From Paracoccaceae bacterium (GTDB taxonomy: Bacteria; Pseudomonadota; Alphaproteobacteria; Rhodobacterales; Rhodobacteraceae): a stretch of 19,774 nucleotides of DNA. The stretch lies in NCBI GenBank assembly GCA_007134805.1, contig SLKB01000250.1:1-19774 (forward strand), given 5' to 3'. Below are positions 1 through 19,774 of this stretch, piece by piece (the first letter of the stretch is position 1; the number at the start of each line of letters is the position of its first letter). A program made the position numbers and the translations under genes. The notes under the pieces were generated by a model. The model was not told the origin of the DNA. It was given only the letters and a program-made list of their open reading frames with translations, and made no database searches.

Positions 1-349
1 CGCGCAGGCGTGCGATCACATGAGCATCATACGGGGCCACGGTTTCCTCCGGATCGAGCACGCGGGTCCCGAGCGTGGTCGGCAGGCCGAGCGCGTGCAT
101 CTGGTCCTTGACGCCGAAGGGCAGCCCGTGCAGGGGGCCGCGGATGCGCCCGGCGCGGATCTCGACCTCGGCTGCACGCGCCTGCGCGAGCGCGCCCTCG
201 GCATCAACGGAGATCCAGGCGCGCAACTGCCCGTCCAGCCGGTCGATCTGCGCGAGCGTCGCGCGGGTCAGCTCGACCGGCGAGAGTGCCCCGCTGCGCA
301 TCAGGCGCGCCTGTTCGAGGGCGGGCAGAAACAGGATGTCAGTGCTCAT
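1..349 (-). CDS. Amidase-signature family enzyme, N-terminal part (runs off the left edge)
   Basis: Only the first 116 residues lie in the window; the gene continues past position 1. The ATG at 349 has an AAGGAC ribosome site just upstream and begins 13 bases after the stop of the TctA gene, so it is the fourth gene of that transport operon. The segment matches the start of amidase-signature hydrolases (GatA-like, about 450-500 residues): a helical N-terminus with LSPVELTRA at 22-30, then GPLHGLPFGVKD at 71-82. Lys81 in this motif is the first residue of the family's Ser-Ser-Lys triad; the two serines lie outside the window. The family hydrolyses carboxamide bonds in the cytoplasm, so the product may deamidate the imported compound or an intermediate. 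Family assignment is good; the substrate is unknown. Confidence 0.85.
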   Translation of the reverse strand, partial: MSTDILFLPALEQARLMRSGALSPVELTRATLAQIDRLDGQLRAWISVDAEGALAQARAAEVEIRAGRIRGPLHGLPFGVKDQMHALGLPTTLGTRVLDPEETVAPYDAHVIARLR

Positions 350-362
350 CGCGGTGTCCTTT

Positions 363-1874
363 TCAGTCTTGCTGACGCGCGCGCCGCGCGCGCAGGTAAT
401 TGGTGATCGCGGGCTGCAGCAGCGACAGCACCAGAAGTGCGGCAAAGACCAGCGCCACGGGCCGGTTGAGGAAGAACTCCAGTTCGCCGCCGCCGCTGAT
501 CTGCCAGGTGCGGATCAACTCGCTCTCGACCATGCGCCCCAGCAGAAGGCCCACAACACAGGCGGCGACTGGGTAGTCGTAGCGCTTCATCAGCCAGCCA
601 AGCCCGGCGAAGAAGAAGAGCGTGATCGGCCCTGCCTGATCGCCAGTGACGGCGAATGCCCCGATCAGCGCCAGCACCATCACCGACGGGATCAGCCAGG
701 TGATCGGCACCTTCACGATGTTCCCGGCAATGGCCAGAAACCCGAGCCCCACGAACAGCAGCAGCACCGCCTGCGCGAAATTGCCCAGAATGATCGTGTA
801 GACGATATCCATGTTCTGATCGATGAAGCTTGGTCCGCCCGTCACATTATGCATGGCAAAGGCTGCCAGCAGCATCGCCGTGCCGCCCCCGCCCGGCAAG
901 CCGAGCGCGAGCATCGTCACCATCGACCCGCCTTCTGAACTGCTGTTGGCACTCTCGGCCGCCATCACGCCCTTCGGGTTGCCCTTGCCATAGCTCTCCG
1001 AGTCACGGTCCGTACGCTTGGCCTGCGCATAGGCGATCAGGTTGCCCACCGATGAGCCGACCCCCGGGATCGCCCCCACGAACACCCCGATCAATGTGCC
1101 GCGCAGCTGGAAGACCGGGTAGCGCAGCACCTGAAAGAACCCCGACAGAACCTTGCCGTAATCGGCGCGCCGCGCGGTCTTGTCCTTGATCAGATATCCC
1201 GACCCTATCAGCGTGAAGAGCTGGCTTGCTGCAAACATCCCCATCATCGCCGGGATGAGCGGAATTCCATCGAGCAGGAAGGGAATGTCGGCAGTGCCGC
1301 GGATATGCCCGGCCGTGTTCATGCCGACAGTGCCCAGCAGCAATCCGAAAGCCCCCGCGATCAGCCCCCGGGCAAGGCTGTTGCCCCCCAGTGCCGCGAT
1401 CATCGACATCCCCCAGAGCGCGATCAGCAGCATCTCGGCCGGGCCCAGCCGGATCACCCAGGCGCCAAGCGGCGCAACCACCAGCAACAGGATCACATAG
1501 CCGATCAGAACCCCCACCACCGAGGCCATCAGCGCCACGCCGAGCGCCTCGTTATGCAGCCCTTTGCGCGCCATCGGATAGCCGTCGAACGTTGTGGCCA
1601 CAGAGGATGTGGTGCCCGGAATGCCCATCAGGATCGACGTGACAGCCCCGCCAAAGCCCCCGCCGGTGAAGATCGCGGTCAGGAACATGATGGCAGGCAG
1701 GAAATCCATGTAAAGTGTCAGCGGCAGGCAGATCGCCATTGCCATCGTGTTCGACACCCCCGCAATCGAACCCGCGACCAGCCCGATCATCAGCCCGGGA
1801 ATAATCACCAGCCAGATATTGATGTCGCTGCCCAGAAGCGCCAGGGCGCCGGAAAAAGCCGTGGTGTCGAGCAT
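363..1874 (-). CDS. tctA: TTT transporter large permease subunit TctA (set 1)
   Basis: 503 residues, the usual length for TctA, the large membrane subunit that forms the translocation path of tripartite tricarboxylate transporters with TctB and the periplasmic TctC. Most of the protein is hydrophobic segments. The family hallmarks are present: GIPGTTSSVATTFDGYP at 84-100, and in the second half an IPGVGSS loop followed by an AYAQAKR helix and a glycine-rich LGLPGGGGTAM loop, reflecting the internal pseudo-repeat of the family. The ATG at 1874 is preceded by AGGAG with 8 bases of spacing. It lies 11 bases after the TctB stop, and the amidase gene follows 13 bases after its own stop. Substrates of this family are small organic acids; which one cannot be read from the sequence. 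Confidence 0.95.
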   Translation of the reverse strand: MLDTTAFSGALALLGSDINIWLVIIPGLMIGLVAGSIAGVSNTMAMAICLPLTLYMDFLPAIMFLTAIFTGGGFGGAVTSILMGIPGTTSSVATTFDGYPMARKGLHNEALGVALMASVVGVLIGYVILLLVVAPLGAWVIRLGPAEMLLIALWGMSMIAALGGNSLARGLIAGAFGLLLGTVGMNTAGHIRGTADIPFLLDGIPLIPAMMGMFAASQLFTLIGSGYLIKDKTARRADYGKVLSGFFQVLRYPVFQLRGTLIGVFVGAIPGVGSSVGNLIAYAQAKRTDRDSESYGKGNPKGVMAAESANSSSEGGSMVTMLALGLPGGGGTAMLLAAFAMHNVTGGPSFIDQNMDIVYTIILGNFAQAVLLLFVGLGFLAIAGNIVKVPITWLIPSVMVLALIGAFAVTGDQAGPITLFFFAGLGWLMKRYDYPVAACVVGLLLGRMVESELIRTWQISGGGELEFFLNRPVALVFAALLVLSLLQPAITNYLRARRARQQD

Positions 1875-1885
1875 GACGGCAGCTC

Positions 1886-2371
1886 CTACAGGATCAGGGT
1901 GGGCATGGGATAGGGCAGGATTATCCGGGCTCCGCCAAGGACGATCAGTGTAAAGATCGCCGCGAATGCCGCCTTGGCGAGATAGCCGCGCGGCTCCAGC
2001 ATGACGAGGGATGCGAAGATGAACAGGAACACGGCCAGATCGAAGCCAAGACGCGGGTAGAAGAACACGAGAAGCCCCGTGAACCCCAGCAGCACCACGC
2101 CGCGCAGCATGTCTACCGGGGTCTGATCGCTGTCCTGGTCCTCGTCAACGTCGCGCTGTTCGAGCGTCGTGGGATCGGCGCGCGCGCGCAGTATCTCGCG
2201 GATCAGTTCGAACGCGCCTGCGGCAAAGACCAGAATGGCCAGAGGCACGACAAGGATCGTGTTCGTCAGTCGCCGTGAGGTATCGAGTGTATCAAGCAGA
2301 TACCACAGCGTCGCGCCGAGGATCAGCACGAGCAGAAACACATGGCCTGGTCGGATCTGGTCAAGTCGCAT
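1886..2371 (-). CDS. tctB: TTT transporter small permease subunit TctB (set 1)
   Basis: 161 residues, typical for TctB, the small four-helix membrane subunit that partners TctA. Two hydrophobic segments at the N-terminus (about residues 11-60) are followed by an acidic hydrophilic loop rich in Asp and Glu (about 68-90) and then two or more hydrophobic segments to the C-terminus. TctB proteins are poorly conserved, so the call rests on length, topology and position between tctC and tctA. The ATG at 2371 has a G-rich AAGGGGGG upstream. It follows the TctC gene by 66 bases that hold a strong hairpin, and is 11 bases ahead of tctA. Confidence 0.9.
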   Translation of the reverse strand: MRLDQIRPGHVFLLVLILGATLWYLLDTLDTSRRLTNTILVVPLAILVFAAGAFELIREILRARADPTTLEQRDVDEDQDSDQTPVDMLRGVVLLGFTGLLVFFYPRLGFDLAVFLFIFASLVMLEPRGYLAKAAFAAIFTLIVLGGARIILPYPMPTLIL

Positions 2372-2395
2372 GTCTTGGCCCCCCTTGCGGAAAAT

Positions 2396-2427
2396 CCGCC
2401 GCCACAGGCAGAGCGCTGTGGCGGCGG
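2396..2427 (-). promoter_or_regulatory. Intercistronic hairpin between tctC and tctB (set 1)
   Basis: Perfect inverted repeat: 12-base arms (2396-2407 and 2416-2427, CCGCCGCCACAG and its complement) around an 8-base loop. It starts 10 bases after the tctC stop. On the transcribed strand it is followed by ATTTTCC, a short U-run, so it could terminate part of the transcripts or protect the 3' end of the tctC message. Equivalent hairpins are present at the same place in the other two TTT operons of this window. The repeat is seen directly; its role is inferred. Confidence 0.7.
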
Positions 2428-2437
2428 CAGTCGCGTG

Positions 2438-3463
2438 TCAGTCCTGCGCCACCTGTGCCAGGATTTCCGGGACCGAGATCACTTCATGCTGGCTCAGCAT
2501 CATCTCGCGCGAGGCGTCGGGGCCCAGCCATTCGATGCCCAGATCCTGCCCTGCATGCGCCTCGATGGCCTCTTCATTCGCGCTGATCGCTTCAAAGGCC
2601 GCGACGATGCGCTCATAACGCTCGGGATACGCATCCATCAGCTCGGTATGGACGAAATAGCCCTGCATGGAGCCCGATAGCACATAGGGATAATCCTCAA
2701 CCCCTTCTTCGGCCAGCACTTCCAGCACTGTGGGCACGCCCCAGACTGAAGACGTTGTCTCGGAAAAGGTCATCAGCGGGCGGAACTCACCCTGCTGGGC
2801 GACCATGCCCTGATCGCCGACAACGCCGATATCGAACTGCCCGCCGATAATGCCGTTGCGCACTGGGCCGCCACTATCATAGGTCACGATACGCACATCA
2901 TCGGTGCTTTTCCCCAGCGCTTCCATGAAGAGCGAGAGGTTGATGAAATCCGTTGCGGTCGGCTGGACGCCCACGCTGACCGTTTGACCGTCGCGGATCG
3001 CGGCCAGCACATCCTCTATCGACTCGAACGGGCTGTCATTCGAGGTGGCAACGATCGAGGTGCCGACATCGGTGATATTGACCGGATGGAATTGCTCGAT
3101 CTCGAAATTCGCGCCTTGCACCAGTTGGTTGATGGTCATGAAGGGGATCGCAGTGGTGCGCATCAGCGTGTAGCCGTCGGCCGGTTGCTGCTGGAAATAG
3201 ACATGTCCCAGCATGTTACCGCCGCCGGGACGGTTCACGACCTGCACGGGCTGGCCCAGCTCGTCCGACAGGAAGCCCGCCATCAGGCGCGCGGCGCGGT
3301 CATTGTTGCCGCCCGTCCCGGCAGGCACCACCATGGTCAGGGGACGTTCGGGGAAGTTCTCGGCCTGCGCCATTCCAGCAGGGGTGCCGACCGGCCCGAT
3401 AGTAAACGCTGCGGCCACTGCAAGCGTCAGCGTCCAGCGGATGGGTGTCGTCGTCGAAGTCAT
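2438..3463 (-). CDS. tctC: TTT periplasmic solute-binding protein TctC/Bug family (set 1)
   Basis: 341 residues, usual for TctC/Bug periplasmic receptors that hand organic acids to TctA/TctB. A signal peptide is clear: a hydrophobic core at about residues 11-30 and a likely cleavage after AQA at 34. The mature protein opens with the family pattern FPERPLTMVVPAGTGGNNDRA and continues with VNRPGGGN and ADGYTL. I chose the ATG at 3463 because it has AGAGGAGAG upstream and gives a normal signal peptide. An in-frame ATG at 3592 would add 43 arginine-rich residues. It heads the tctC-tctB-tctA-amidase operon and has its own promoter with an AT-rich palindrome about 150 bases upstream, of the type also found before the GntR gene. 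Ligand unknown. Confidence 0.93.
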   Translation of the reverse strand: MTSTTTPIRWTLTLAVAAAFTIGPVGTPAGMAQAENFPERPLTMVVPAGTGGNNDRAARLMAGFLSDELGQPVQVVNRPGGGNMLGHVYFQQQPADGYTLMRTTAIPFMTINQLVQGANFEIEQFHPVNITDVGTSIVATSNDSPFESIEDVLAAIRDGQTVSVGVQPTATDFINLSLFMEALGKSTDDVRIVTYDSGGPVRNGIIGGQFDIGVVGDQGMVAQQGEFRPLMTFSETTSSVWGVPTVLEVLAEEGVEDYPYVLSGSMQGYFVHTELMDAYPERYERIVAAFEAISANEEAIEAHAGQDLGIEWLGPDASREMMLSQHEVISVPEILAQVAQD

Positions 3464-3582
3464 GGGATATCTCTCCTCTGATGGGCTAAGTAATGCGAGG
3501 GATGCGCCAGCTTTCGGGTCACGGAGCCGCCTTCGGGCACCTGAGGTGATGCCTCTTGCGTATGAGGTTCCTGACACAGCAT
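3460..3582 (-). other. Possible 40-codon leader ORF overlapping the tctC start
   Basis: An ATG at 3582 opens a 40-codon frame, different from that of tctC, whose TGA (3462-3460) overlaps the tctC ATG as ATGA, the arrangement typical of translational coupling. The nearest ribosome-site-like sequence, AAGGAG at 3595-3600, is 12 bases from this ATG, longer than ideal. It is only 2 bases from another ATG (3592) that is in frame with tctC. The encoded peptide is hydrophilic and resembles nothing I recognise. It may be a real leader peptide or chance. Confidence 0.2.
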
Positions 3583-3607
3583 TGCGGCGCATCTCTCCTT
3601 TCGATCG

Positions 3608-3622
3608 CTCTATATTATATAA
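3608..3622. promoter_or_regulatory. AT-rich operator-like palindrome A, before tctC set 1
   Basis: CTCTATA-T-TATATAA: 5 of 7 positions pair across the centre. Read on the minus strand it gives TTATATAATATA, identical over 12 bases to site D at 15513-15527. It covers the exact TATAAT -10 hexamer of the tctC promoter. Together with sites B (9678-9692), C (10229-10243) and D it is the candidate binding site for the HutC-type GntR regulator encoded at 10278. The sequence resemblance is seen; binding is inferred. Confidence 0.6.
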
Positions 3623-3642
3623 GTTTTCAAGCGACGTGACCA
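3614..3642 (-). promoter_or_regulatory. Promoter of the tctC-tctB-tctA-amidase operon (set 1)
   Basis: On the minus strand there is a perfect -10 TATAAT (3619-3614) and a -35-like TGGTCA (3642-3637, 4 of 6 to consensus) with 17 bases between. The -10 lies inside operator-like palindrome A. The -35 overlaps a second perfect palindrome, GACCAG-T-CTGGTC, at 3638-3650. The start of transcription would fall near 3607. Confidence 0.55.
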
Positions 3643-3650
3643 GTCTGGTC
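3638..3650. repeat. Perfect 13-base palindrome over the tctC -35
   Basis: GACCAG-T-CTGGTC has 6-base arms and a 1-base centre and overlaps the -35 of the tctC set 1 promoter. I did not find it at the other three operator-like sites, so it may be the site of a second regulator. Seen directly; function unknown. Confidence 0.4.
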
Positions 3651-3797
3651 GTTTTCCGGAGACGGGCTTTATTCTTTTTATTTCAGTATTTTAGGCCTCC
3701 GGGGCTGCGTGGCGCCGCTTGGGCGCCCAGCAATTGCATAATTTCTGAAGCCTTCTGCACGTCTTTTGCGCGCTTTGCGAAGGCATCCGGCCGGCGC

Positions 3798-5165
3798 TCA
3801 GGCGTCGGCAGTTGCGGCCTCGGGCATCGACGCCGCGGTCAGGGTCTTCAGATCGGCGATCTGATCGAGCGTCCAAGCCATCTCGAGAAGTTTCTCAGAA
3901 GCGGATTGCCCGATCACCAGCGCGGATTGGGTCAGGAATTTCTCCTCCAGCTGCGCGTTCGAGAGCGGTCGCTCGCGGCTGCCGATGGCACGCTCGACAT
4001 GTTTCTCGATCTTGCTGCCATCATTCATCTTCAGCCTGATCGTCACCGACGCTTCGTGGCAGGCCGGGTCGGCTGTGGCCGTGACCTTGCCGCGCAGATC
4101 CACGATCTCGGGCATGTTGACCACCTCGTCTGTAAAGGCCGTGGGCGCCCCGTCGCCACGCAACAGCGCACAGGCCGCCGAGTGATAGACGCTGAACTTG
4201 CCTTCCAGCCCGGTCTTTGGGGTGGTCTTGCCAGTCAGTTCCAGCACCAGCGGGTGCGTGGTCAGTTCCACCGCCGCGATCTGGGCAATCTTCACGGGGC
4301 CGAGTTCCTCGCGCAGTTGCTGGCAGCCATCGATGGTCGGATGAATCACGATCCCGCAGGCATAAGGCTTGTAGCTGTTGAGCGCGGCTTCCCAGCGCGT
4401 TCCCAGACCTTCGAGGATCTCGTCGTAATCCTGCTTGTCCGACAGGATGTTGGCAAAGCCGCGCCGCCCCTCGATCCCGGTAAGCGCGGAATCGAAGCCC
4501 GCTTCGGCCATATGTGCGGCAAAGGCGCCGTTCTGCGCCGCGCGGCCGGGATGGAAGGATTTGGTCATCGTGCCGAACATCTCGCGCAGGCCCGAAGCCT
4601 GGGTCGCTGCCAGCGACAGCGCCCATTGCATCTGCGTCCGGTTCAACCCGATGGCATATCCGACCGCTGCCGCCGCGCCAAAGACACCGGCCGTGCCGGT
4701 GATGTGCCAGCCGCGGTCGTAATGGTCGGGGTAGACGGCATTGCCGATCCGGCATTCGACCTCGACCCCGATGATCATCGCGGTCAGCAGCTTGTCGCCG
4801 GGGATGCCGCGGGTTTCGGCCAGCGGCACGAGGGCCGAGGCAACAGGGCCAGCGGGGTGAATGATGGTTTTCAGATGCGTGTCATCATAGTCCAGCACAT
4901 GGCTGGTGATCCCATTCAGCAACGCGGCATGCAACTGATCAAGCCGCTCCGCGCGACCAATGACCTGCGCGGTGCTCGGCCCGCAAAAGGGACGGATCGC
5001 GGCAATCGCGTGGCCTGCGCTGGGGTGATCGGCGCCGCCCACGGCGCAGCCGACCCAGTTGACGAAAGTGCGCAGCCCCTCGTCGCGAACCTCGGACGGG
5101 ATATCCGCCGCCTTGAGGTTCACGATCCAGTCGGCCAGCTGTTCGGTGACATTCGGTGTGCTCAT
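3798..5165 (-). CDS. MmgE/PrpD family protein A (last gene of the enzyme operon)
   Basis: 455 residues, full length for the MmgE/PrpD family, which includes 2-methylcitrate dehydratase, cis-aconitate decarboxylase and iminodisuccinate epimerase. These cytoplasmic enzymes act at a carbon next to a carboxylate. All residues I associate with the active site are here: DYDDTH at 92-97, His103 (IIHPAG), His154 (GWHITGTAG), Lys202 and His205 (KSFHPG), Lys266 and Tyr268 (KPYACG). The ATG at 5165 has AAGGAAG upstream and is preferred to an in-frame ATG 20 codons upstream. It is the most divergent of three consecutive paralogues and is separated from the previous one by 64 bases with a hairpin. No methylcitrate-cycle genes are nearby, so I do not call it PrpD proper. 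Exact reaction unknown. Confidence 0.9.
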   Translation of the reverse strand: MSTPNVTEQLADWIVNLKAADIPSEVRDEGLRTFVNWVGCAVGGADHPSAGHAIAAIRPFCGPSTAQVIGRAERLDQLHAALLNGITSHVLDYDDTHLKTIIHPAGPVASALVPLAETRGIPGDKLLTAMIIGVEVECRIGNAVYPDHYDRGWHITGTAGVFGAAAAVGYAIGLNRTQMQWALSLAATQASGLREMFGTMTKSFHPGRAAQNGAFAAHMAEAGFDSALTGIEGRRGFANILSDKQDYDEILEGLGTRWEAALNSYKPYACGIVIHPTIDGCQQLREELGPVKIAQIAAVELTTHPLVLELTGKTTPKTGLEGKFSVYHSAACALLRGDGAPTAFTDEVVNMPEIVDLRGKVTATADPACHEASVTIRLKMNDGSKIEKHVERAIGSRERPLSNAQLEEKFLTQSALVIGQSASEKLLEMAWTLDQIADLKTLTAASMPEAATADA

Positions 5166-5191
5166 GGTGCTTCCTTTTTGAATTTGAGACG

Positions 5192-5212
5192 CGGGCGCGG
5201 CGTTCGCGCCCG
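5192..5212 (-). promoter_or_regulatory. Intercistronic hairpin between MmgE/PrpD genes B and A
   Basis: Perfect 8-base arms (5192-5199 CGGGCGCG and 5205-5212) with a 5-base loop lie in the 64-base gap between the two genes, 17 bases after the stop of gene B. There is no U-run, so it probably marks a processing or stability point, not a terminator. Role inferred. Confidence 0.45.
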
Positions 5213-5229
5213 AAGGGACAGGCACTTTG

Positions 5230-6642: not shown

Positions 6643-6644
6643 CG

Positions 6645-8033: not shown

Positions 8034-8035
8034 GC

Positions 8036-8845
8036 TCACTCCTCCTCGGTGGTCGTGCTGGCCATCATCGCGAACAGACCGCGCTTGCGGATTCCGCGAC
8101 GACAGGCTTCCAGTTCAAGAACCTGATCACTGTCCACATCGAGATTCACGGCCGCACCAAAGCGCGACAGGAAAAAGACCAGCAGCTCGGATGTCTTGGC
8201 CTGAAAGATCAATGGCTTCAGACCAAAGGCCGCGACCAGATCCTCGATCATCGCGGCGTTTATCTCGGCCACACCTTCGTTCAGCCCCTCGGCCTGTATC
8301 AGCACGCGCTCGGCACCGGCCTCGAGGCAGGCTGCCACATCGGCGCGGGTGCGCGCAGCACTTGTCGCCCAGTTGGCCCCGCCCTTCGAGCCCACCTCGG
8401 CCACCACCTCCAGCCCTGCGCGGCGCGCGGTGGCAATCAGCGACATCTTGGTCGGCAGATCCAGCGTGATCTGCGCATTCGACACCTCGACCCCCCATGC
8501 ACCAAGATCCGCGATGGCGCGGTAATAGTCGCCCGCCACCCCCTGCAGGATCGCCAGTTCCGAAACCTCACCTGCCAGAAAGACCGGGATGCCTTCACGC
8601 GCGTAATGGCCGATCTTTTCGCGCAACACCGGTTCAGGCAGCAGCCGCGCCAGACCCATCGCCAGTTTCGCGCGGTCAATGAAAGTGCCCGCCATGGCGA
8701 TCAGGTCACTCTGCGCCTGCGGGCCCAGGCCACGATCGGCAGCGACCGTGAGCCCGCTTTCGCGGGGGCGGGCGGGGCGGGCGGGAATGCGCACCATCCC
8801 CAGAGGATGCTTCGTCAAGCAAGTGTCGGGGCGTGTCTCATCCAT
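8036..8845 (-). CDS. Phosphosulfolactate synthase (ComA)-like TIM-barrel protein
   Basis: 269 residues. The pattern follows the ComA family (phosphosulfolactate synthase, which adds sulfite to phosphoenolpyruvate in coenzyme M and sulfolactate biosynthesis): GLTVAADRGLG at 31-41, FIDRAKLAMG at 55-64, LAGEVSELAI at 90-99, GVEVSNAQITL at 118-128, EVGSKGG at 150-156, and a C-terminal VNLDV...LE..RRGIR at 233-253. Several blocks I recall as conserved differ: LAGE for PGGT, IQAEGLNEG for the I-E-x-R-E-S-G block, and FQAK for FEAP. It may thus catalyse a related but distinct addition or elimination on an enol- or enoyl-carboxylate. The ATG at 8845 with AAAGG upstream follows the SDR stop by 19 bases; an upstream ATG at 8887 has no ribosome site and overlaps the SDR gene. 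Confidence 0.8.
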   Translation of the reverse strand: MDETRPDTCLTKHPLGMVRIPARPARPRESGLTVAADRGLGPQAQSDLIAMAGTFIDRAKLAMGLARLLPEPVLREKIGHYAREGIPVFLAGEVSELAILQGVAGDYYRAIADLGAWGVEVSNAQITLDLPTKMSLIATARRAGLEVVAEVGSKGGANWATSAARTRADVAACLEAGAERVLIQAEGLNEGVAEINAAMIEDLVAAFGLKPLIFQAKTSELLVFFLSRFGAAVNLDVDSDQVLELEACRRGIRKRGLFAMMASTTTEEE

Positions 8846-8864
8846 CGGGCGCAGCCTTTCGGGG

Positions 8865-9626
8865 TCAGGGCAGATAGGTGCCGCCATTCACATGAATGGT
8901 CTGCCCCGTGACGAAGCGACCATCCGGCCCGGCAAGTGCTGCGACCATGCCCGCAATCTCTTCGGGCGTGCCGCGCCGACCCAGCAGCGGTTTGTGGATA
9001 TCGTGATGGCGCGGACGCGCGGCGACCGTGGAGGTGTCGCGCTTGGTATCGACCATGCCGGGGTGAACCAGATTGACGGTAATGTCGTCGGGCGCCAGAT
9101 CCCAGGCCAGCGCCTTGGTCATCCCCTGAAGCCCGGCCTTTCCGGTCACCACATGGATGCGGTCAGCCGCCCCCGATGACCCGGTCATGCCGCCGATATT
9201 GATGATTGCGCCAGACGCGCTCTTGCGCAGATGCGGGATCGCGGCCTGTGCGCAAAGAAAGGCGCCATCCAGAATGATGGCAAGGATCTCGCGCCACTCC
9301 TGCAGGCTGACAGTATCGATCTTGGCTTCGCGCCGGATGGCAGCGTTGTTGACCAGCACATCAAGCCCGCCGAATTCGCGCACGGCCGTGCCGATCAGGG
9401 CCTCGACCGCACCCGCGTCGGTGATGTCGGCCAGGCACCCCACGGCCTGCCCGCCGGCGGCGCGGATCGCGTCCACGGTTTCGTCGACCTGGTCCTGACG
9501 CGACCTCGCATTGATCACGACGGCTGCCCCGTCGGCGGCCAGGCGCATGGCAATTGCCCGTCCGATATTGCGCCCGCTGCCGGTCACCACCGCCACGCGT
9601 CCATCCAGGGGTTTGTGTTCTGCCAT
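8865..9626 (-). CDS. SDR-fold protein lacking most of the catalytic tetrad
   Basis: 253 residues, standard for short-chain dehydrogenase/reductases of the FabG type. The dinucleotide-binding motif is intact (TGSGRNIG at 15-22) and so is NNAA at 93-96. Lined up on FabG, the catalytic Asn is Ile118, the Ser is Gly146 and the Tyr is Val159; only Lys163 (HVVTGKAGL) remains. It probably binds NAD(P) but should not do ordinary alcohol-ketone oxidoreduction. It may belong to a divergent SDR subfamily with other chemistry or a structural role. The ATG at 9626 has AAGGA upstream. It is the first gene of the five-gene enzyme operon, with operator-like site B about 50 bases before it, and is divergent from the small plus-strand gene at 9755. 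Confidence 0.88.
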   Translation of the reverse strand: MAEHKPLDGRVAVVTGSGRNIGRAIAMRLAADGAAVVINARSRQDQVDETVDAIRAAGGQAVGCLADITDAGAVEALIGTAVREFGGLDVLVNNAAIRREAKIDTVSLQEWREILAIILDGAFLCAQAAIPHLRKSASGAIINIGGMTGSSGAADRIHVVTGKAGLQGMTKALAWDLAPDDITVNLVHPGMVDTKRDTSTVAARPRHHDIHKPLLGRRGTPEEIAGMVAALAGPDGRFVTGQTIHVNGGTYLP

Positions 9627-9754: not shown

Positions 9755-10174
9755 ATGGCACTGGTGACACGAGAGAAATTCCTCGCAACCCTGCGCGATC
9801 CGGGCGGGATGCCCGAAGCTGAAATCGCGCGCATCGGCGGGCTTTGGCCGGGGGCAAGCGCGGCCGCGCAAGAGGCGCTTGGGCGGATGCCGGGGATCGG
9901 ATTCCTCTCGCCGCGCCGCCGGGCGGAAGCGTTCGTCGCACTCTGTGCAGAGCTTGACCGCGCCGCCGCACAGCAGGGGCTGACGCAGGAACAATGCCAG
10001 CTTGCACTGGCAATCCTGCGGCTGAGCGCGGCGCGCATGCGCAAGGCCGAGGCGGGGTTTCTCGCGCGGCTCTCGCGCCTCGACGGCCCCGCGCGCGACG
10101 CACTGCCCGAGACCGCGAAGCATTTTCTCTACTCGATCCACCTGTTGCAGAACCCTGACACTTCGGGACGCTGA
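9755..10174 (+). CDS. Unknown 139-residue helical protein between the SDR operon and the GntR gene
   Basis: I do not recognise a family. The ATG has GGGAGG 5 bases upstream and the composition is that of a normal soluble protein: Ala, Leu, Arg and Glu rich, no signal peptide, no membrane segment and no cysteine cluster (two isolated Cys). Several amphipathic helices can be expected, the clearest at about residues 55-115. It is divergent from the SDR operon and precedes the GntR gene on the same strand with a 103-base gap that has its own operator-like site. It could be a small partner of the regulator or a local accessory factor. The minus-strand frames across it have arginine-rich composition and look like shadows. 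Confidence 0.65.
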   Translation: MALVTREKFLATLRDPGGMPEAEIARIGGLWPGASAAAQEALGRMPGIGFLSPRRRAEAFVALCAELDRAAAQQGLTQEQCQLALAILRLSAARMRKAEAGFLARLSRLDGPARDALPETAKHFLYSIHLLQNPDTSGR

Positions 10175-11057: not shown

Positions 11058-11063
11058 GCGGCG

Positions 11064-12140: not shown

Positions 12141-12162
12141 ATGCCTGTATCAGTCGTGAGGA

Positions 12163-12189
12163 GGCGCGGGCGACCTAGGGGCCCGCGCC
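12163..12189 (-). promoter_or_regulatory. Hairpin between tctA set 2 and the AbrB-family gene
   Basis: Perfect 9-base arms (GGCGCGGGC at 12163-12171 and its complement at 12181-12189) with a 9-base loop, in the 84-base gap. It has no following U-run. It could stop or slow part of the transcripts before the AbrB-family gene. Role inferred. Confidence 0.45.
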
Positions 12190-12224
12190 GCAAGGATGAG
12201 ATATGGCGTGCAGCGGCGGCCGTG

Positions 12225-13718: not shown

Positions 13719-13760
13719 GCTGACGATCCCTGGTTATCTGATAGTGACAGGCACACGCGC

Positions 13761-14291: not shown

Positions 14292-14421
14292 GTTTGCCTC
14301 TCCTCCCTTTCCGGAACTGGTTGTGCCGCAAGCGTCGGTGCCGCAGTCCATCAGGAGCGTCTGCGCCCCTGTCCTCCCTGCAACCTGACCTCTGGGGATT
14401 GCTCCCCCCCTTGGAGACTGT

Positions 14422-14454
14422 GGCGCACAGCCTGCATGCTGCAGGCTGTGCGCC
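14422..14454 (-). promoter_or_regulatory. Intercistronic 15-base-pair hairpin between tctC and tctB (set 2)
   Basis: Perfect inverted repeat with 15-base arms (GGCGCACAGCCTGCA at 14422-14436 and its complement at 14440-14454) and a 3-base TGC centre. It begins 13 bases after the tctC stop, in a 176-base gap. There is no U-run. It is the longest stem of the three at equivalent places and probably protects the tctC message, giving more binding protein than permease. The rest of the gap shows nothing I can name. Confidence 0.7.
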
Positions 14455-14467
14455 CTTCAACCTGGTC

Positions 14468-15421
14468 TCAGTTCAGGCCCTCGATAAACTCGCGCATCTC
14501 TTCATTGACGACACCGAGGTATTCGGTGAATTCCTCTGGGCCCATGAAGGCCGCCGAGAGCGAGGCTTCGGTCCAGTAGGTGTTCCACGGATCGTCTTCA
14601 TAAAGCTCGCTCAGCGCCGTGGCGATCGCCTCGACCATTTCGGGGTCCATGCCCGGAGGTCCGAAGATGCCGCGGAACTTGTTCGAGGTCACTTCATACC
14701 CGAGCTCGGCAAGTGTGGGCACATCGGGATAGGTGTCCAGACGCTCTTCCTGGAACACGGTCAGCATGCGCAGCGTACCGTCCTGAAGATGGGTCAGCGC
14801 CTGGCCCGGCTCGCCCACGACAGCATCGACATGCTCGCCCAGCAGCGCCACGACAGCATCGCCGCCGCCCTCATGCGGCACCGTGCGCGCGTCGATCTCT
14901 GTTGCGGCGGTGAAGTTCTGCAGCACCAGCTGGTCCAGCGATCCCGCCGAGCCGATCCCGATCGACAGGTCGCGCGGGTTCTCGCGCGCATGGTCGAGGA
15001 ATTCCTCGATCGTCTGGAACGGGCTGTTGTCATGGACATAAAGCGTCGTCGGATCAAGGAACAGCCGCGCGATCGGGGTCATTTCCTCATAGGTGGGAAT
15101 CCCGGCCGAGCGCAGTGGCGTGATCAGCTGCGTGGGTGTCACCGATTTCAGCGTGTAGCCATCGGGATTGGCCTGATTGACAAGCCAGCTTGCCGCCACG
15201 GCGCCGGAGCCGCCAACGCGGTTGTCCACGTTGGTGCTGATGCCGAATTTCGCTTCGAGCGTGGGTGCAAGGTTGCGCAGCATCACATCACCGCCGCCCC
15301 CTGCGCTGGAATGTGTGACAAGCATCACCGACTGCGTCGGCCATTCCACCTCGGCCAGTGCGGCGGGGCTGGTGGCCAGCACCAGCGCGGCGGATGCAAG
15401 AATGTTTCGTGTCGAGATCAT
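14468..15421 (-). CDS. tctC: TTT periplasmic solute-binding protein TctC/Bug family (set 2)
   Basis: 317 residues. A signal peptide with hydrophobic core at about 7-20 is likely cut after ALA at 23. The mature part opens with WPTQSVMLVTHSSAGGGGD, the family's first ligand loop, then VDNRVGGSGA and NPDGYTL, and later IGIGSAGSLDQ and HEGGGDAV, the second-domain loop. The ATG at 15421 has GGGGAGGAC upstream; in-frame codons reaching 15631 would run across the promoter and are rejected. It heads tctC-tctB-tctA-AbrB-family gene and has its own promoter with operator-like site D. Probably captures an organic acid in the periplasm; ligand unknown. Confidence 0.93.
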   Translation of the reverse strand: MISTRNILASAALVLATSPAALAEVEWPTQSVMLVTHSSAGGGGDVMLRNLAPTLEAKFGISTNVDNRVGGSGAVAASWLVNQANPDGYTLKSVTPTQLITPLRSAGIPTYEEMTPIARLFLDPTTLYVHDNSPFQTIEEFLDHARENPRDLSIGIGSAGSLDQLVLQNFTAATEIDARTVPHEGGGDAVVALLGEHVDAVVGEPGQALTHLQDGTLRMLTVFQEERLDTYPDVPTLAELGYEVTSNKFRGIFGPPGMDPEMVEAIATALSELYEDDPWNTYWTEASLSAAFMGPEEFTEYLGVVNEEMREFIEGLN

Positions 15422-15509
15422 CTCAGTCCTCCCCAGACCTGTTTGCAATTCTGCCTTTCGGCGTTGCTCGAGGCGTGGCCACCTGCACGTGATCCCACCT
15501 CTCCAGCAT

Positions 15510-15537
15510 ATCTTATATATTATATAACTTTGTGCAA
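15510..15537 (-). promoter_or_regulatory. Promoter of the tctC-tctB-tctA-AbrB-family operon (set 2)
   Basis: On the minus strand, -35-like TTGCAC (15537-15532) and -10-like TAAGAT (15515-15510) are 16 bases apart, with operator-like palindrome D filling the spacer. An exact TATAAT (15524-15519) inside the palindrome is an alternative -10, but its -35 would be poor. A repressor on the palindrome would block either. Confidence 0.5.
15513..15527. promoter_or_regulatory. AT-rich operator-like palindrome D, before tctC set 2 (perfect)
   Basis: TTATATA-T-TATATAA, a perfect 7-1-7 palindrome and the best of four similar sites, about 95 bases before the tctC start. It stands out as an AT island in GC-rich DNA. 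Sites A, B and C resemble it and lie before the other units I assign to the GntR regulator. Confidence 0.65.
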
Positions 15538-15658
15538 ATCCTTTCTCGGCCTGTCTGCGCAAACATCGATGAGCCCGCGAAATCAGGGGCTTGGGGCGAT
15601 GCGTGGCGTCTCGCCTGCGGGAATTTCGCACCGCACTGGCCCGAATCGTTGCCCCGAG

Positions 15659-17104
15659 TCAGGGCTGTGCGGGGCAGAGCACGTCAAGGATGACAGCGGC
15701 ATCCGGGGCGGTGCCAAGGGCTGCGATCGTGTCGCGCAGGCGCTCCTGCCCGGGGGGGCCCAGACGCCCGGTTGCCGCCGCCGCAAGTTTCGCAGCCATG
15801 TCCTTTGCGCTCATCGGATGGTCCGGCCCGCCCCGATAGGCCAGCGGTGCAACGGCGTCGAGCACACGCCCATCCGTGAGCCTGACCTGAAGCGCCGAGC
15901 GGATCGCCGCATGGCCGCCGCGATCGAGTTCCGGGTCATGGCGCAGGGTGATGCGCTCCTGCAAGGCGCGCGTCTCGGCGCGGGCCAGAAACGCGTCCGA
16001 GAATTCGGCGGGGCCCGCGCGGCCGGCGATCACGATCATGGCGAGCAGCGCCGGCAGGCAGAATTTCGCCTCGAGCGGGGTGCGCGCGCGGGGATAGCGG
16101 ATCGCCTGGGTGATGCTGCTGCTCGCGCGGATCTCGATCCCGGCGATGGCGTCCGCGCGCACGCCGTGCGCGGCCACGAGAGCGGCCATCGCGTCCATGG
16201 TCTGGTGGGTCAGGATGCCCGACGGGTAGGGCTTCACGCTCAGGCCCGGATCGACCAGCGACCACGGGTCGGCGAAATTGCCGATCACCTTGTCGGGCGG
16301 GGGCGGGCCGCCCAGCACATGCGGCAGGCCCCATTCGCCATCGAGCACGGCCTCGGCCGCATCGACCCCGGCGCGCACGAGATCTACGGCGATGACCCCG
16401 GCTTCGGCGGCGAAACCGGCATGCATGGCCTTGATGCGGCGGCCGTATTGCGCGCGCAGCCCCGCCGCACGGCTCGCTGCCACGCCCAGGGCGAGATTTG
16501 CGCGCGGCGCGTCGAGCCCGAGGGCGACCGCTGCCGCCGCCGCGGCCCCCAGCGGACCATAGACCGACGTGGACTGGAAGCCGCGCTCATAGACCGCCGC
16601 CCGCGAGCCTTCCGAGAGTTTGCAGGCGATCTCGACCCCGACCGCGAAGGCGCAGATAAACCGCCCCCCCGACAGCGGCTGGCCGTGATGCCGCGCGCGC
16701 TCGGCCAGGGCGAGAAGCGCGCCCAGCACCGGCGCAGAGGGGTGCATCAGAAGCCCGTAGCGGTGGTTTGGATCGCGCGAGACCTGCGTGTCGTCCCAGT
16801 CATCGACATGCCCGAGCGTGCCAAGGATCAGCGCGGCCTGCCGCGCGGTCATGCTGTGGGGTGCGCGCGCCGCGTCAGGGTCGGGCACGCGGGCCTCGGC
16901 CCGGCCGCCCTGCGCGATCTGATCCGCAATCAGGATCCCGGCCAGCGGGTCATTCAGCCCCGACAGGATACAGGCGGTCGTATCAAGGATCGCGCGGCGC
17001 GCAGCGCGTGCGACATCTTCGGGCAGGGGCATGTGCGGGACCCGCGCGATGAGCGTTGCTGCCCTCTCTGTCAGCCCCGCGAAGGGCACGCGATCAGGAT
17101 GCAT
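15659..17104 (-). CDS. MmgE/PrpD family protein D, with Gln in place of an active-site His
   Basis: 481 residues, full family length, and the fourth and most distant MmgE/PrpD paralogue in the window. Motifs: DDWDDT at 101-106, His121 (LMHPSAP), Lys225 and His228 (KAMHAG), Lys291 and Tyr293 (KPYPSG). The residue that is His in A, B and C (GWH or GFH) is Gln177 here (RGFQSTS). A Pro/Gly-rich insertion (GGPPPPDK, about 265-272) is also specific to it. The ATG at 17104 overlaps the end of tctA set 3 by 11 bases, so translation is probably coupled and the protein belongs to that transport operon. Predicted cytoplasmic enzyme acting on the imported acid; reaction unknown. Confidence 0.88.
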   Translation of the reverse strand: MHPDRVPFAGLTERAATLIARVPHMPLPEDVARAARRAILDTTACILSGLNDPLAGILIADQIAQGGRAEARVPDPDAARAPHSMTARQAALILGTLGHVDDWDDTQVSRDPNHRYGLLMHPSAPVLGALLALAERARHHGQPLSGGRFICAFAVGVEIACKLSEGSRAAVYERGFQSTSVYGPLGAAAAAAVALGLDAPRANLALGVAASRAAGLRAQYGRRIKAMHAGFAAEAGVIAVDLVRAGVDAAEAVLDGEWGLPHVLGGPPPPDKVIGNFADPWSLVDPGLSVKPYPSGILTHQTMDAMAALVAAHGVRADAIAGIEIRASSSITQAIRYPRARTPLEAKFCLPALLAMIVIAGRAGPAEFSDAFLARAETRALQERITLRHDPELDRGGHAAIRSALQVRLTDGRVLDAVAPLAYRGGPDHPMSAKDMAAKLAAAATGRLGPPGQERLRDTIAALGTAPDAAVILDVLCPAQP

Positions 17105-18608
17105 CGCGGCCCCGGACCACCCGCAGCACAGTGACCACCGACAGAAGCGCCACCACGCCCCAGAGCCCGACGGCCGTCCAGGAGCGGAAGAAATACGCGA
17201 TCTCCCCCTGGCCGAGCAGCATGGCGCGGACGAAATTGGCCTCTGCCAGCGGCCCCAGCACCAGCCCCAGGATCAGCGGGACCACCGGAAAGCCGAAGCG
17301 GCGGAAGATCACCCCGACGATCCCGAAAATGATCGTCAGCCAGACATCGAACATTGACGAGCGCACGGCATAGGCGCCGATCAGGCACAGGGTGATCACG
17401 ATGGGCACCAGAAAAAGCGGGTTCAGCCGTGTCACCAGCGAGAGCGGCCCCGCCACCATCAGCCCGATCGGGATGATCAGCAGATTGGCGAAGAACAGCG
17501 CCCAGAGCACAGTGTAGGCCTCGAGCGTGTAATTCACCATCAGTTGCGGGCCGACCGCCACCCCGTGCATATAGAGCGCGGCCAGCATCACCGCCGCGGT
17601 CGGGCTGCCGGGAATGCCGAGCGTCAGCGTCGGCACCATGGTGCCCGCCGTCACGGCATTGTCCGAGGCTTCGGTCGCCACGATCCCGTCGGGCTCGCCC
17701 TTGCCGAAATTTGCCGCGCGCGGCGAGGTGCGCTTGGCCTCGGCATAGCTGAGGAAATTCGCGAGCGTGACGCCCACCCCGGGCAGAACGCCCAGAAAGA
17801 AGCCGATCATGGTGGATTTCAGTGTCAGGATCGGACGGCGCAGAAGGTAGTCGAAACTGCTTGCGATCTCGCGCAGCGAGCGCTGCACGATCCCGTCGGT
17901 GGGCGCGACGATCTCGAAGCTGCGCGCAAGCAGCGTCTTGCGATTGGCGGCCAGCAGCAGCATTTCCGTCAGGCCGAACAGCCCGATGATCGCGGGAATG
18001 AAGGGGATGCGGTCATAAAGCTCGATGAAGCCGAAGGTCAGGCGCGGCTGGGCATATTGCGGATCCGCCGACATTGCAGCGATCAGCATGCCCAGAAAGC
18101 CCGCAATCAGCGCCTTGACCGGCTGATCCCCCACCAGCGAGCCGATCAGCAGAAGCCCGATCACCGCGACGATGAACAGCTCGACCGACCCGAAGGTGAG
18201 CGCGACCTGCGACATCGGCTGGATGAAGGCGATCACCGCCAGCGTCGCGATGCACCCACCCACTGCCGAAGCCATCCGCGCAATGGCGATGGCGAATTCC
18301 GCCTTGCCCGCCCGCGTCATCGGGTAACCTTCAAGCGCGGTTGCCGCCGCGCCCGCGGTGCCCGGCACATTGATCAGGATCGCGGGCACCGCGCCCGCGA
18401 AGGCCGCGCCGGCATAGATCGCGGCCATCAGGATCAGCGCATATTCCGAAGGCAGATAGATCGAGAGCGGCAACAGGATCGCGGCCGCGTTCGAGCTGGT
18501 AAACCCCGGCAGCACGCCCACGAAGAACCCGCCCAGCAGCCCGAGCAGGACCAGAGTGATCCCCTGAATGGTCATCAGATTGATCAGCCCGGCGATGATC
18601 GGTTCCAT
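17094..18608 (-). CDS. tctA: TTT transporter large permease subunit TctA (set 3)
   Basis: 504 residues with typical TctA marks: VGVLPGFTSSN at 30-40, NVPGTAGAAATALEGYP at 80-96, and in the second half GVLPGVG, the SYAEAKR helix and LGIPGSPTAAV. Multi-pass inner-membrane protein. The ATG at 18608 has GAGGAAAG 7 bases upstream and lies 60 bases after tctB. Its last codons overlap the start of MmgE/PrpD protein D. It works with TctB at 18669 and TctC at 19208. Confidence 0.95.
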   Translation of the reverse strand: MEPIIAGLINLMTIQGITLVLLGLLGGFFVGVLPGFTSSNAAAILLPLSIYLPSEYALILMAAIYAGAAFAGAVPAILINVPGTAGAAATALEGYPMTRAGKAEFAIAIARMASAVGGCIATLAVIAFIQPMSQVALTFGSVELFIVAVIGLLLIGSLVGDQPVKALIAGFLGMLIAAMSADPQYAQPRLTFGFIELYDRIPFIPAIIGLFGLTEMLLLAANRKTLLARSFEIVAPTDGIVQRSLREIASSFDYLLRRPILTLKSTMIGFFLGVLPGVGVTLANFLSYAEAKRTSPRAANFGKGEPDGIVATEASDNAVTAGTMVPTLTLGIPGSPTAAVMLAALYMHGVAVGPQLMVNYTLEAYTVLWALFFANLLIIPIGLMVAGPLSLVTRLNPLFLVPIVITLCLIGAYAVRSSMFDVWLTIIFGIVGVIFRRFGFPVVPLILGLVLGPLAEANFVRAMLLGQGEIAYFFRSWTAVGLWGVVALLSVVTVLRVVRGRDAS

Positions 18609-18668
18609 GCGGTGACTTTCCTCGTTGGTGGCAGACGTGGTCTGGCGACAGATTTAACGGATGCGCAA

Positions 18669-19139
18669 TCAGCGGATGCGGTTGAGCGGCAGGTCGAACA
18701 GCATCACGAACACCCCGTAGAGAAGCGCGGCCGTGATCAGGCTGATGGCCACGATCAGCGGCACTTTCCCGCGAAAGAGCCAGAAATAGAGCACCAGCAT
18801 CAGCCCCGTTGTGGCAAGGCTCAGCCCGGTGATGGGTGCCATGTAGACCGCAAGCAACACGATCGCGAGACTTGCGATCAGCGCAACATTGACCTGTGCC
18901 TCGGGGTCGGGCGGGCCCATTGCCTGCCCGCGCACCATGCGCAGCACCTCGACAAGGATCTGCAGAAGCGTCAGCCCCACGATCACGAGGATGAGGAAGC
19001 GCGGATAGGCAAAGGCCAGGTTCCGCAACCCGCTCGCGCTGGCGTAGAACATCCCGCAAAAGATCAGCACTCCCGCCGGCACTACTGTCAGTTGCAGAAC
19101 CTGTTCGATCTTGTCCTTGTCCACGTCGCCCCCGTTCAC
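18669..19139 (-). CDS. tctB: TTT transporter small permease subunit TctB (set 3)
   Basis: About 156 residues with four or more hydrophobic segments, the first near residues 14-32, and a hydrophilic loop (QAMGPPDPEAQ) between the helix pairs, as in TctB. No ATG fits; I chose the GTG at 19139, with AGGG 7 bases upstream. A GTG at 19124 and a TTG at 19154 are possible alternatives. It lies between tctC and tctA, with the intercistronic hairpin immediately before it. Moderate sequence conservation, so the call leans on topology and position. Confidence 0.85.
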   Translation of the reverse strand: MNGGDVDKDKIEQVLQLTVVPAGVLIFCGMFYASASGLRNLAFAYPRFLILVIVGLTLLQILVEVLRMVRGQAMGPPDPEAQVNVALIASLAIVLLAVYMAPITGLSLATTGLMLVLYFWLFRGKVPLIVAISLITAALLYGVFVMLFDLPLNRIR

Positions 19140-19155
19140 ACAATTGCCCTGCAAC

Positions 19156-19187
19156 TCGGGCGGCCCGCGCGCTGGCGGGCCGCCCGA
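19156..19187 (-). promoter_or_regulatory. Intercistronic 13-base-pair hairpin between tctC and tctB (set 3)
   Basis: Perfect 13-base arms (19156-19168 and 19175-19187, TCGGGCGGCCCGC and its complement) with a 6-base loop. It begins 20 bases after the tctC stop and ends just before the tctB ribosome site. There is no U-run. It is at the same place as the hairpins in sets 1 and 2, although the stem sequences are unrelated. Confidence 0.7.
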
Positions 19188-19207
19188 TCATCCTGCGATC
19201 GCCACGC

Positions 19208-19774
19208 TCAGTCGGCAAATTCCTCGCGGGTTGCGACAAGATCGGCAATGACCTCGTACTGCCCGAGATTGTCCTCGTGATACGCGTCGGGCGCCACGTA
19301 ATTCACCTTGCCAAGTTCGTCATTCCTCTCGAGCATGGCGAGGTATTCCTCGTTATGCTTGGCGCTGTGGAACGCCTCGACCAGAGTTTCGAACCGGTCG
19401 GGGTGGTTCTCGCGGCAGGCGGCAGTGACGAAGACCCCGTAGCTTGACCCGTTGGGCATCATCTCGGTGCCGAGCTGCTCATTGAGGGGCGCGGCATCAT
19501 CCGTGATGTCGGGCCAGTTATTGGCCTCCTGATGGATCCCGATGACCCGCGTGCCTTCCTCGACATTGCGGCTGTTGAAGACCCCGGCATGGGTGAAATC
19601 GACCTCGCCGCCCAGCAGGGCGTTGCGCGCCTCGGCGCCGCCGCCGAAGGGCACCACATTGAATTCGGCGCCGGTCGCCTGCATGATGTCAAGGATGCCC
19701 AGGAAGTTGTTGTTGGTGTAGAAGGCCACGCTTGCCCGGATCTCGCCGGGGCGTTCGAGCGCATCGTCGATCAG
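19208..19774 (-). CDS. tctC: TTT periplasmic solute-binding protein TctC/Bug family, C-terminal part (set 3)
   Basis: The last 188 residues; the gene starts beyond the right edge, so no signal peptide or promoter can be seen. The segment begins in the second lobe and shows the family loop VPFGGGAEARNALLGGEVDF, followed by THAGVFN and the usual helical C-terminus. It is followed by tctB, tctA and MmgE/PrpD protein D. Related to TctC sets 1 and 2 only distantly. Whether this operon has the AT-rich operator cannot be judged from this window. Confidence 0.88.
   Translation of the reverse strand: MIDDALERPGEIRASVAFYTNNNFLGILDIMQATGAEFNVVPFGGGAEARNALLGGEVDFTHAGVFNSRNVEEGTRVIGIHQEANNWPDITDDAAPLNEQLGTEMMPNGSSYGVFVTAACRENHPDRFETLVEAFHSAKHNEEYLAMLERNDELGKVNYVAPDAYHEDNLGQYEVIADLVATREEFAD

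Follow-up and report, generated by a model that had tools for sequence, protein, structure and literature searches.

A recurrent proteobacterial gene island with a ComA-like protein and an arginine-type MmgE/PrpD protein: possible breakdown of a sulfonated polycarboxylate

Results

The 19,774-nucleotide contig SLKB01000250.1 of a Paracoccaceae bacterium (assembly GCA_007134805.1), analysed at its full length and called the window below, carries a gene for a ComA-like protein together with four MmgE/PrpD genes (mmg1 to mmg4), three tripartite tricarboxylate transporter (TTT) systems, an amidase gene, a gene for a short-chain dehydrogenase/reductase (SDR)-fold protein and a regulator gene. The preferred reading, to which a probability of roughly 40% was assigned, is that this island imports a sulfonated succinate-type acid and that the ComA-like enzyme, run backwards, eliminates sulfite from it. 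Its core (TTT system 1, amidase, SDR, ComA-like protein, Mmg3, Mmg2, GntR regulator, AbrB-type protein and TTT system 2) is, equally tentatively, regarded as a horizontally spread catabolic island. More doubtful is the wider claim that the ComA-like subfamily forms a novel sulfo-lyase class, its metal site altered or missing, which reverses coenzyme-M-type sulfite addition on such acids and has a dedicated MmgE/PrpD partner whose Arg, in place of the catalytic His, holds the sulfonate, and that the whole represents an undescribed mobile proteobacterial organosulfonate pathway.

The ComA-like Protein

Membership of the window protein in the ComA family was evident from PF02679 (184.7 bits, cut-off 25.2). 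A canonical phosphosulfolactate synthase was ruled out by the equivalog model TIGR03849 (137.8 against 280 bits), by the motifs and by the tree, where the protein falls into a separate group, the FQAK subfamily; several databases label its members "phosphosulfolactate synthase". The EARG/EGRG and FEAP/WEAP motifs of the M. jannaschii, B. subtilis, Xanthobacter and L008 proteins (L numbers denote the loci compared) are QAEG and FQAK in the subfamily, with both glutamate positions occupied by glutamine in all 32 subfamily rows (FQAK, or IQGK in L039). Further divergent ComA-family proteins were seen in L051, L054 and L030, with the motifs EAAE/FELP, EGAE/FELS and EGGE/FEVD; two of them adjoin ABC transporters, and one of the genomes has extra ComA copies.

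In the ComA reaction, an enol carboxylate receives sulfite at its beta carbon, and the ComA proteins tested reportedly run in this forward direction. Were the same true of the window enzyme, it would make a sulfonate or an osmolyte-like compound, and the TTT genes would belong to a separate uptake island; several hosts are members of genera said to be of the haloalkaliphile type, which would suit such a product. The importers, the amidase, the HutC-type regulator and the sulfite-export genes of the same islands fit catabolism instead, and the two Glu-to-Gln changes would speak against phosphoenolpyruvate as the partner. Forward synthesis was judged highly improbable.

The Arginine-Type MmgE/PrpD Partner

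All four window MmgE/PrpD proteins carry both domains, PF03972 and PF19305, above cut-off. A PrpD-type 2-methylcitrate dehydratase was ruled out, the best of the four reaching 46.7 bits against equivalog cut-offs of 458–950. When 74 MmgE/PrpD sequences, including three PDB references, were aligned, 53 had His at the histidine position of the HP motif, 19 had Arg and two had Lys. Seventeen Arg sequences came from 17 of the 31 loci with a ComA-like gene described below; the others were window Mmg3 and a Sodalis plasmid protein. The two Lys sequences came from L031 and P. versutus, each with a ComA-family gene. A truncated Arg-type-like copy in L029 (64% similar) was excluded from the alignment by its length. 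Mmg1, Mmg2 and Mmg4 have the active-site His of the iminodisuccinate (IDS) epimerase-like enzymes, which is Arg in Mmg3; Mmg2-type proteins with His are also present in clusters without ComA.

The best PDB relative of Mmg3 was IDS epimerase (2hp3), almost tied with cis-aconitate decarboxylase, and that of Mmg4 was likewise IDS epimerase, almost tied with other members. In comparison with 2hp3, the TK-x-x-H motif retains its Lys, and the majority of the active-site positions in the alignment are likewise unchanged. In PMC12290011, the mechanism proposed for MmgE/PrpD enzymes goes through an enolate formed on the backbone of a C4-dicarboxylate; judged from the alignment, the HP-motif His would correspond to the proton-transfer residue discussed there.

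Across 18 loci, pairwise identities of the ComA-like protein and the Arg-type Mmg3 were correlated (r = 0.85, reached in none of 2000 permutations). This is as co-inheritance of the two genes predicts, though shared host descent would contribute to it.

On plasmid pHS1 of Sodalis praecaptivus (L056, 4152-13353), an Arg-type MmgE/PrpD gene, 60% identical to Mmg3, is divergent from an operon of the ornithine cyclodeaminase (OCD) family, which includes TauD-like and TcuA/flavocytochrome-like genes and is adjoined by a phn C-P lyase operon. This arrangement, together with a weakly 2-aminoethylphosphonate-like binding protein (50 against 393 bits) and the possibility that Arg binds either anion, would suit a phosphonate analogue of the pathway, in which the ComA-like barrel releases or adds phosphite rather than sulfite. 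The Sodalis plasmid carries no ComA, however, no phosphonate genes were found among the scanned part of the ComA-locus genes, and TauE and YeiE (see below) indicate sulfite, so that phosphite chemistry appears very unlikely.

Recurrence and Distribution of the Gene Set

An alignment of 25 ComA-like proteins, used as the query against 84,980 species genomes, identified 31 loci with a ComA-like gene, which rules out a lone oddity of the source metagenome-assembled genome (MAG). Among them, an MmgE/PrpD gene lay within 10 kb in 25 loci, and the Arg-type Mmg3 within the same distance in 17; TctC was found in 21, TctA in 13, a similar GntR gene in nine and an SDR of the same type in eight. Ten of the 31 loci are shorter than 12 kb and hence have lost neighbours, open reading frames were called by a custom script that may miss or misplace neighbours, and Pfam was run on a part of the neighbour genes only.

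Two gammaproteobacteria, Halomonas alkalisoli and Billgrantia aerodenitrificans, share 14 of the 19 window genes (41–85% identity, Halomonas values); in H. alkalisoli, all 14 counterparts fall into a stretch of about 25 kb. About 18 kb of this Halomonadaceae island contain the SDR, TctC1B1A1, amidase, ComA-like, Mmg3, Mmg2, GntR, AbrB and TctA2B2C2 genes, interspersed with another Mmg, a TauE and a LysR gene; the counterpart of a 139-aa protein of the window lies 3 kb outside this stretch. The neighbourhood search that the initial annotation had named as a possible refutation, through genes rarely found together, did not refute its proposal. Its view of the whole window as one pathway was not supported: the Halomonas island contains nothing close to TTT system 3, mmg1 or mmg4, and Mmg2-like, SDR, AbrB and TTT genes are also found where ComA is absent, neighbouring tartrate dehydrogenase and PdxA genes in three of the four annotated cases.

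The subfamily is rare. It was found in two of 35 genomes of the same genus and, at a comparable score, in none of 24 others (two weak matches, E 9e-23 and 2e-4), in two of 275 Halomonadaceae (E 1e-50), in three of 384 other alphaproteobacteria (E 1e-40) and in 2/17, 1/397 and 1/300 genomes of three orders (E 1e-50; the centre genome counted each time). Wide occurrence is ruled out by these counts. Among plasmids, 37 records had ComA-family matches, none of them at 60% identity or more. Because the distribution is sporadic, it fits horizontal spread of the island.

A chance grouping of organic-acid genes without a common pathway could be imagined, given the shortness of the contig and the common occurrence of the TTT, MmgE/PrpD, SDR and GntR families. 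Set against this are the presence of the same set in alpha- and gammaproteobacteria at the identities given, the ComA/Mmg3 correlation, which shared host descent would also yield, and the finding that all four PF03972 matches of the whole assembly fall in the window. Recurrence, the Halomonas counterparts and the correlation have largely refuted chance assembly already, and it was rated the least probable of all the readings.

Sulfite-Linked Neighbours

A TauE-family gene was found near the ComA-like gene in six of the 31 loci, a lower bound, as the search used a hidden Markov model (HMM) seeded from three Pfam-confirmed members. It directly adjoins the cassette in L012 (Halomonas), L013, L022, L038 and L040, and ends 2.5 kb from comA in L035. 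The six loci represent three separate branches of the ComA tree, two loci each; TauE identity between locus pairs is 36–54%, and the positions differ between pairs. As a direct neighbour, TauE would be expected 0.13 times (one gene per kb assumed), giving P = 3e-4 for three branches. Over whole loci, the expectation was 1.0, with P = 6e-4 for six loci and 0.08 for three branches.

In both Halomonadaceae a LysR gene adjoins TauE; in L012 its score with the YeiE model was 285 bits (cut-off 480), and L013 has a copy with 97% identity to that of L012. In PMC12880088, Salmonella YeiE is described as a sulfite-binding regulator that controls YeiH. A YeiH-family gene is also present in the Halomonas and Billgrantia islands (TIGR00698 about 140 bits, cut-off 232.6; PF03601 above cut-off). 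It shares the orientation of tctC2 and stops 1.7 kb upstream of that gene, the interval containing a class II aldolase gene. These two genomes carry three and two YeiH genes, and the chance of one per 40 kb is about 2% in each.

TauE, YeiH and the YeiE-like regulator in related islands lend support to the earlier proposal of a polycarboxylate that is possibly sulfonated.

Gene Content of the Window

The window is one whole contig of a 412-contig, 2.68-Mb assembly that is 82.5% complete. Nineteen genes were called, 17 of them on the minus strand, and the reading frames of mmg3, comA and the SDR gene overlap. A Pfam family was assigned to every gene except the 139-aa reading frame at 9755-10174. 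The genes are listed below; percentages are identities to the loci named.

2..355, minus: amidase, first 118 aa, ended by the contig edge; PF01425 66.9 bits; 63% to the amidase adjoining comA in Halomonas L012 (8358-9818)
363..1874, minus: TctA1 of TTT system 1; PF01970 379 bits; 85% to L012
1886..2371, minus: TctB1; PF07331 27.7 against 29.1 bits, slightly below the gathering score; 41% to L012
2438..3592, minus: TctC1, solute-binding protein; PF03401 50.6 bits; 68% to L012
3798..5225, minus: MmgE/PrpD 1; PF03972 and PF19305; best PDB relative 7bra (B. subtilis IRG1); 93% L010, 56-58% L038/L040
5230..6648, minus: MmgE/PrpD 2, HP-motif His present (PVHSG); PF03972 and PF19305; 65-88% in L010-L014
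6645..8039, minus: MmgE/PrpD 3, Arg in place of His (PIRVG); PF03972 and PF19305; the type accompanying the ComA-like gene
8036..8887, minus: ComA-like TIM-barrel enzyme, FQAK/QAEG subfamily, predicted sulfite-eliminating lyase; PF02679
8865..9626, minus: SDR-fold protein without catalytic Ser/Tyr; PF13561 181.8 bits; motif INIGGMTG...RIHVVTGKAG
9755..10174, plus: conserved 139-aa protein; no Pfam or NCBIfam match; 76% in L010/L011, 43% in L012
10251..11057, plus: GntR/UTRA (HutC-type) regulator; PF00392 and PF07702; 60% in L012, 84% in L010
11064..12140, minus: AbrB-type membrane protein, putative transporter; PF05145 248.9 bits, TIGR03082; 52% in L012
12225..13718, minus: TctA2 of TTT system 2; PF01970 473.8 bits; 85% in L049
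13761..14351, minus: TctB2; PF07331 63.8 bits; 58% in L049
14468..15631, minus: TctC2; PF03401 131 bits; 71% in L049
15659..17104, minus: MmgE/PrpD 4, type specific to the window; PF03972 and PF19305; at most 44% in the loci
17094..18608, minus: TctA3 of TTT system 3; PF01970 429.6 bits; without counterpart in the Halomonas island
18669..19154, minus: TctB3; PF07331 38.1 bits
19208..19774, minus: TctC3, partial, ended by the contig edge; PF03401 24.2 against 27 bits, slightly below the gathering score

The gene list of the initial annotation (three TTT systems, four MmgE/PrpD proteins, a ComA-like protein, a degenerate SDR, an amidase and a HutC-type regulator) is correct according to Pfam, with one TTT system cut off by the contig end; the AbrB-type protein is an addition. 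Adjacent tctC-tctB-tctA genes were found in three sets, the third with its tctC partial. The three TctA proteins scored 379–474 bits (PF01970 cut-off 28.9); TctB1 and TctC3 are under their gathering scores, yet stand in the TctC-TctB-TctA order. The histidine-utilisation repressor HutC itself was ruled out for the regulator, which is of the HutC type only (TIGR02018 121 against 220 bits).

The SDR-fold protein does not have the complete set of Ser and YxxxK residues that marks a catalytic SDR oxidoreductase. Its Ser is replaced by Gly and its Tyr by Val, with the Lys retained, in all nine copies at 50% identity or more (window, L010–L014, L022, L035 and L040); two L023 SDRs with 32% identity, which represent a different kind, were excluded. 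The same loss of Ser and Tyr was seen in five of five further clusters, four without ComA plus P. versutus. The protein is conserved and non-canonical rather than decayed.

Parallel and Sister Clusters

P. versutus plasmid pTAV3 (L055, 7249-31240) carries another ComA-family gene (29% identity, motifs EQSE/IEAD) that overlaps tcuA. Its cluster also contains an SsuA-type ABC system, PrpF, three MmgE/PrpD genes (68% identity with Mmg1 in one case and 54% with Mmg3 in another), two TTT systems, AbrB, an SDR of the same type and paired chromate-transporter genes. TcuA scored above its equivalog cut-off and the SsuA-type protein slightly below its own. The cluster links the ComA family with polycarboxylates of the succinate type and, though weakly, with sulfonates.

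Sister clusters in Neorhizobium, Phyllobacterium, Pacificitalea and P. yeei combine TTT systems, His-type Mmg proteins and the same SDR, with an annotated AbrB in three of the four. No ComA, TauE or YeiH appeared in the stretch in their incomplete gene tables, a six-frame search of the four records found no ComA, and all 12 aligned Mmg proteins keep the HP-motif His. Such ComA-less clusters (L057-L060) are on plasmids, have tartrate/isopropylmalate dehydrogenase and PdxA in L057-L059 and chromate transporters in L057 and L058, and perhaps serve another hydroxy-dicarboxylate pathway.

These clusters bear on a carbon-only polycarboxylate as the substrate, a branched or hydroxylated tricarboxylate of the tricarballylate, aconitate or alkylcitrate type, in which case the ComA-like enzyme would use water or an aldol-like step and TauE and YeiH would export other anions. 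The gene content shared with the sister clusters, TcuA and PrpF of P. versutus and a fumarate-reductase-like flavoprotein in L039 are in its favour. The sister clusters, however, are precisely the ones without ComA, without listed TauE or YeiH and with His in their Mmg proteins, and the YeiE-like regulator is difficult to account for. A carbon-only substrate was considered unlikely, although it comes first among the alternatives.

Observations Weighing Against a Sulfonated Substrate

Several results count against the sulfonate reading. An OCD/mu-crystallin-family gene is near the ComA-like gene in 12 of the 31 loci by HMM and in 11 by BLAST, twice as frequently as TauE; only L035 has both. This neighbour suggests imine or amine chemistry. 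The Sodalis plasmid has its Arg-type Mmg3 near OCD, a TauD-like gene and the C-P lyase operon, without ComA. In L016, L020 and L021, the Mmg next to the ComA-like gene is of the His rather than the Arg type, and six loci show no MmgE/PrpD gene in view, four of these being under 9 kb. The Arg-type Mmg3 is absent from the eight loci labelled Betaproteobacteria, Burkholderiales or Bordetella; they mostly have lone TctC genes, some with an amidase and one with an M24 peptidase gene. In view of these differences between loci, substrates may vary within the subfamily.

The sulfite link has weak points of its own. TauE is common (190 matches in 25 of these genomes, 1.97 per Mb), the L012 and L022 copies are 52% alike and may share descent, TauE was chosen after looking, and its whole-locus P by branch is the 0.08 given above. 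No sulfite exporter or sulfite-responsive regulator is among the 18 Pfam-matched window genes, and no sulfite gene, TauE included, was found near the cassette in L010, L011 and L014. The source genome has seven TauE genes and one YeiH gene, all on other contigs; sulfite export in this organism is possible but unlinked to the cassette.

Three side observations concern these loci. The OCD/mu-crystallin gene is on the opposite strand directly upstream of the ComA-like gene in L015, L017, L026, L029 and L032-L035. In L028 (3192-4379) and L036 (2452-3639), an M24 peptidase/creatinase-like gene and an amidase lie no more than several kb from the ComA-like gene. L023 is a MAG labelled Bordetella parapertussis, a label that looks doubtful.

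The OCD neighbours are one ground for a nitrogen-containing substrate, IDS-like or of the N-substituted aspartate type, which MmgE/PrpD proteins would epimerise, the ComA-like barrel would cleave or form at its C-N bond, the OCD protein would reduce or oxidise as an imine and the amidase would deamidate. Their matches include the iminosuccinate reductase BhcD, far below cut-off (69.6 against 500 bits), and the PDB ranking of Mmg3 and Mmg4 points the same way. An amidase at 40% identity or more is near the ComA-like gene in five of the 31 loci, which also gives slight support to the earlier suggestion of an amidated substrate. Against nitrogen chemistry, we know of no amine reaction in the ComA family, the window-type loci L010-L014 have no OCD match, the TauE, YeiH and YeiE neighbours are left unexplained, and the PDB ranking mirrors merely which relatives have solved structures. 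Such a substrate was judged quite unlikely, below the carbon-only one and well above phosphite chemistry.

Proposed Pathway

A single pathway for a sulfonated acid would accommodate the importers, the enolate enzymes, the barrel that handles sulfite and the sulfite exporters of some hosts. The substrate could be a sulfosuccinate-like or sulfotricarballylate-like acid, perhaps entering as an amide. As their family suggests, the TTT systems would import it, and the amidase would liberate the acid where required. The MmgE/PrpD proteins, to go by their conserved residues, would make or use a carboxylate-stabilised enolate of the succinate backbone and thereby epimerise or isomerise the substrate; they may in this way set the stereochemistry or shift a double bond. 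In Mmg3, the Arg replacing His might grip an extra anion such as sulfonate.

The ComA-like barrel would then carry out the ComA reaction in reverse and without phosphate, sulfite being lost beta to a carboxylate to give a fumarate-type product. This step is proposed from the fold, the kept Lys and Glu and the altered residues, and presupposes a role for Lys137 of ComA. TauE or YeiH, whose genes adjoin the cassette in certain hosts and are located elsewhere in the rest, would export the sulfite, and the C4 product would probably feed the tricarboxylic acid cycle.

Significance and Comparison with Known Systems

To our knowledge, the list of sulfite-releasing enzymes is short: SuyAB, Xsc, CuyA, glycyl-radical lyases and TauD-type dioxygenases. 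If the proposal is true, the ComA-like lyase would add a family to this list and a new route of C-S bond cleavage, and an enzyme family known so far for attaching sulfite would remove a sulfur group. Proteobacterial use of sulfonated polycarboxylates, such as remnants of sulfosuccinate surfactants, could be explained in this way, and a function would be assigned to a ComA subfamily, an Arg-type MmgE/PrpD class and an SDR without catalytic residues. As named strains carrying the island, Halomonas alkalisoli and Billgrantia aerodenitrificans make the proposal directly testable. Open-licence literature searches on the gene set and on sulfosuccinate, judged by titles and the opening lines of abstracts, brought up no description of the gene set or of a ComA-like lyase, and no described pathway for the pTAV3 cluster was found.

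From ComA of M. jannaschii (1qwg) and B. subtilis YitD (1u83), the window protein differs by missing the equivalog model, by its QAEG and FQAK motifs and by its own tree group. ComA is also known from a Xanthobacter Py2 plasmid, near 2-hydroxypropyl-CoM lyase (L053), whereas the window gene is accompanied by MmgE/PrpD and TTT genes. The window MmgE/PrpD proteins share their fold family with IDS epimerase and (S)-(R)-methylsuccinate isomerase, the Lys match being to 2hp3 only; in contrast to these two enzymes, the HP-motif His gives way to Arg in the Mmg3 type, and three or four paralogues stand together here.

The pTAV3 cluster resembles the window in its TTT, MmgE/PrpD, degenerate SDR and AbrB genes, a GntR-type (FCD) regulator, a ComA-family gene and the close relative of Mmg1. 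It differs in having a ComA of another branch and, additionally, TcuA, PrpF and the SsuA-type ABC system.

Proteins of the SuyAB, Xsc or CuyA type are absent from the 18 Pfam-matched window genes. Sulfolactate degradation in Roseovarius, Chromohalobacter and Paracoccus, as presented in PMC5812351 and PMC12421959, combines the SlcHFG TTT system for uptake with SuyAB, the liberation of sulfite and its removal from the cell by TauE. Import of a sulfonated acid by a TTT system, release of sulfite and its export by TauE would be common to that route and the one proposed here. The difference lies in the cleavage of the C-S bond, which is performed by SuyAB in sulfolactate degradation and would be performed by the ComA-like protein in the proposed pathway.

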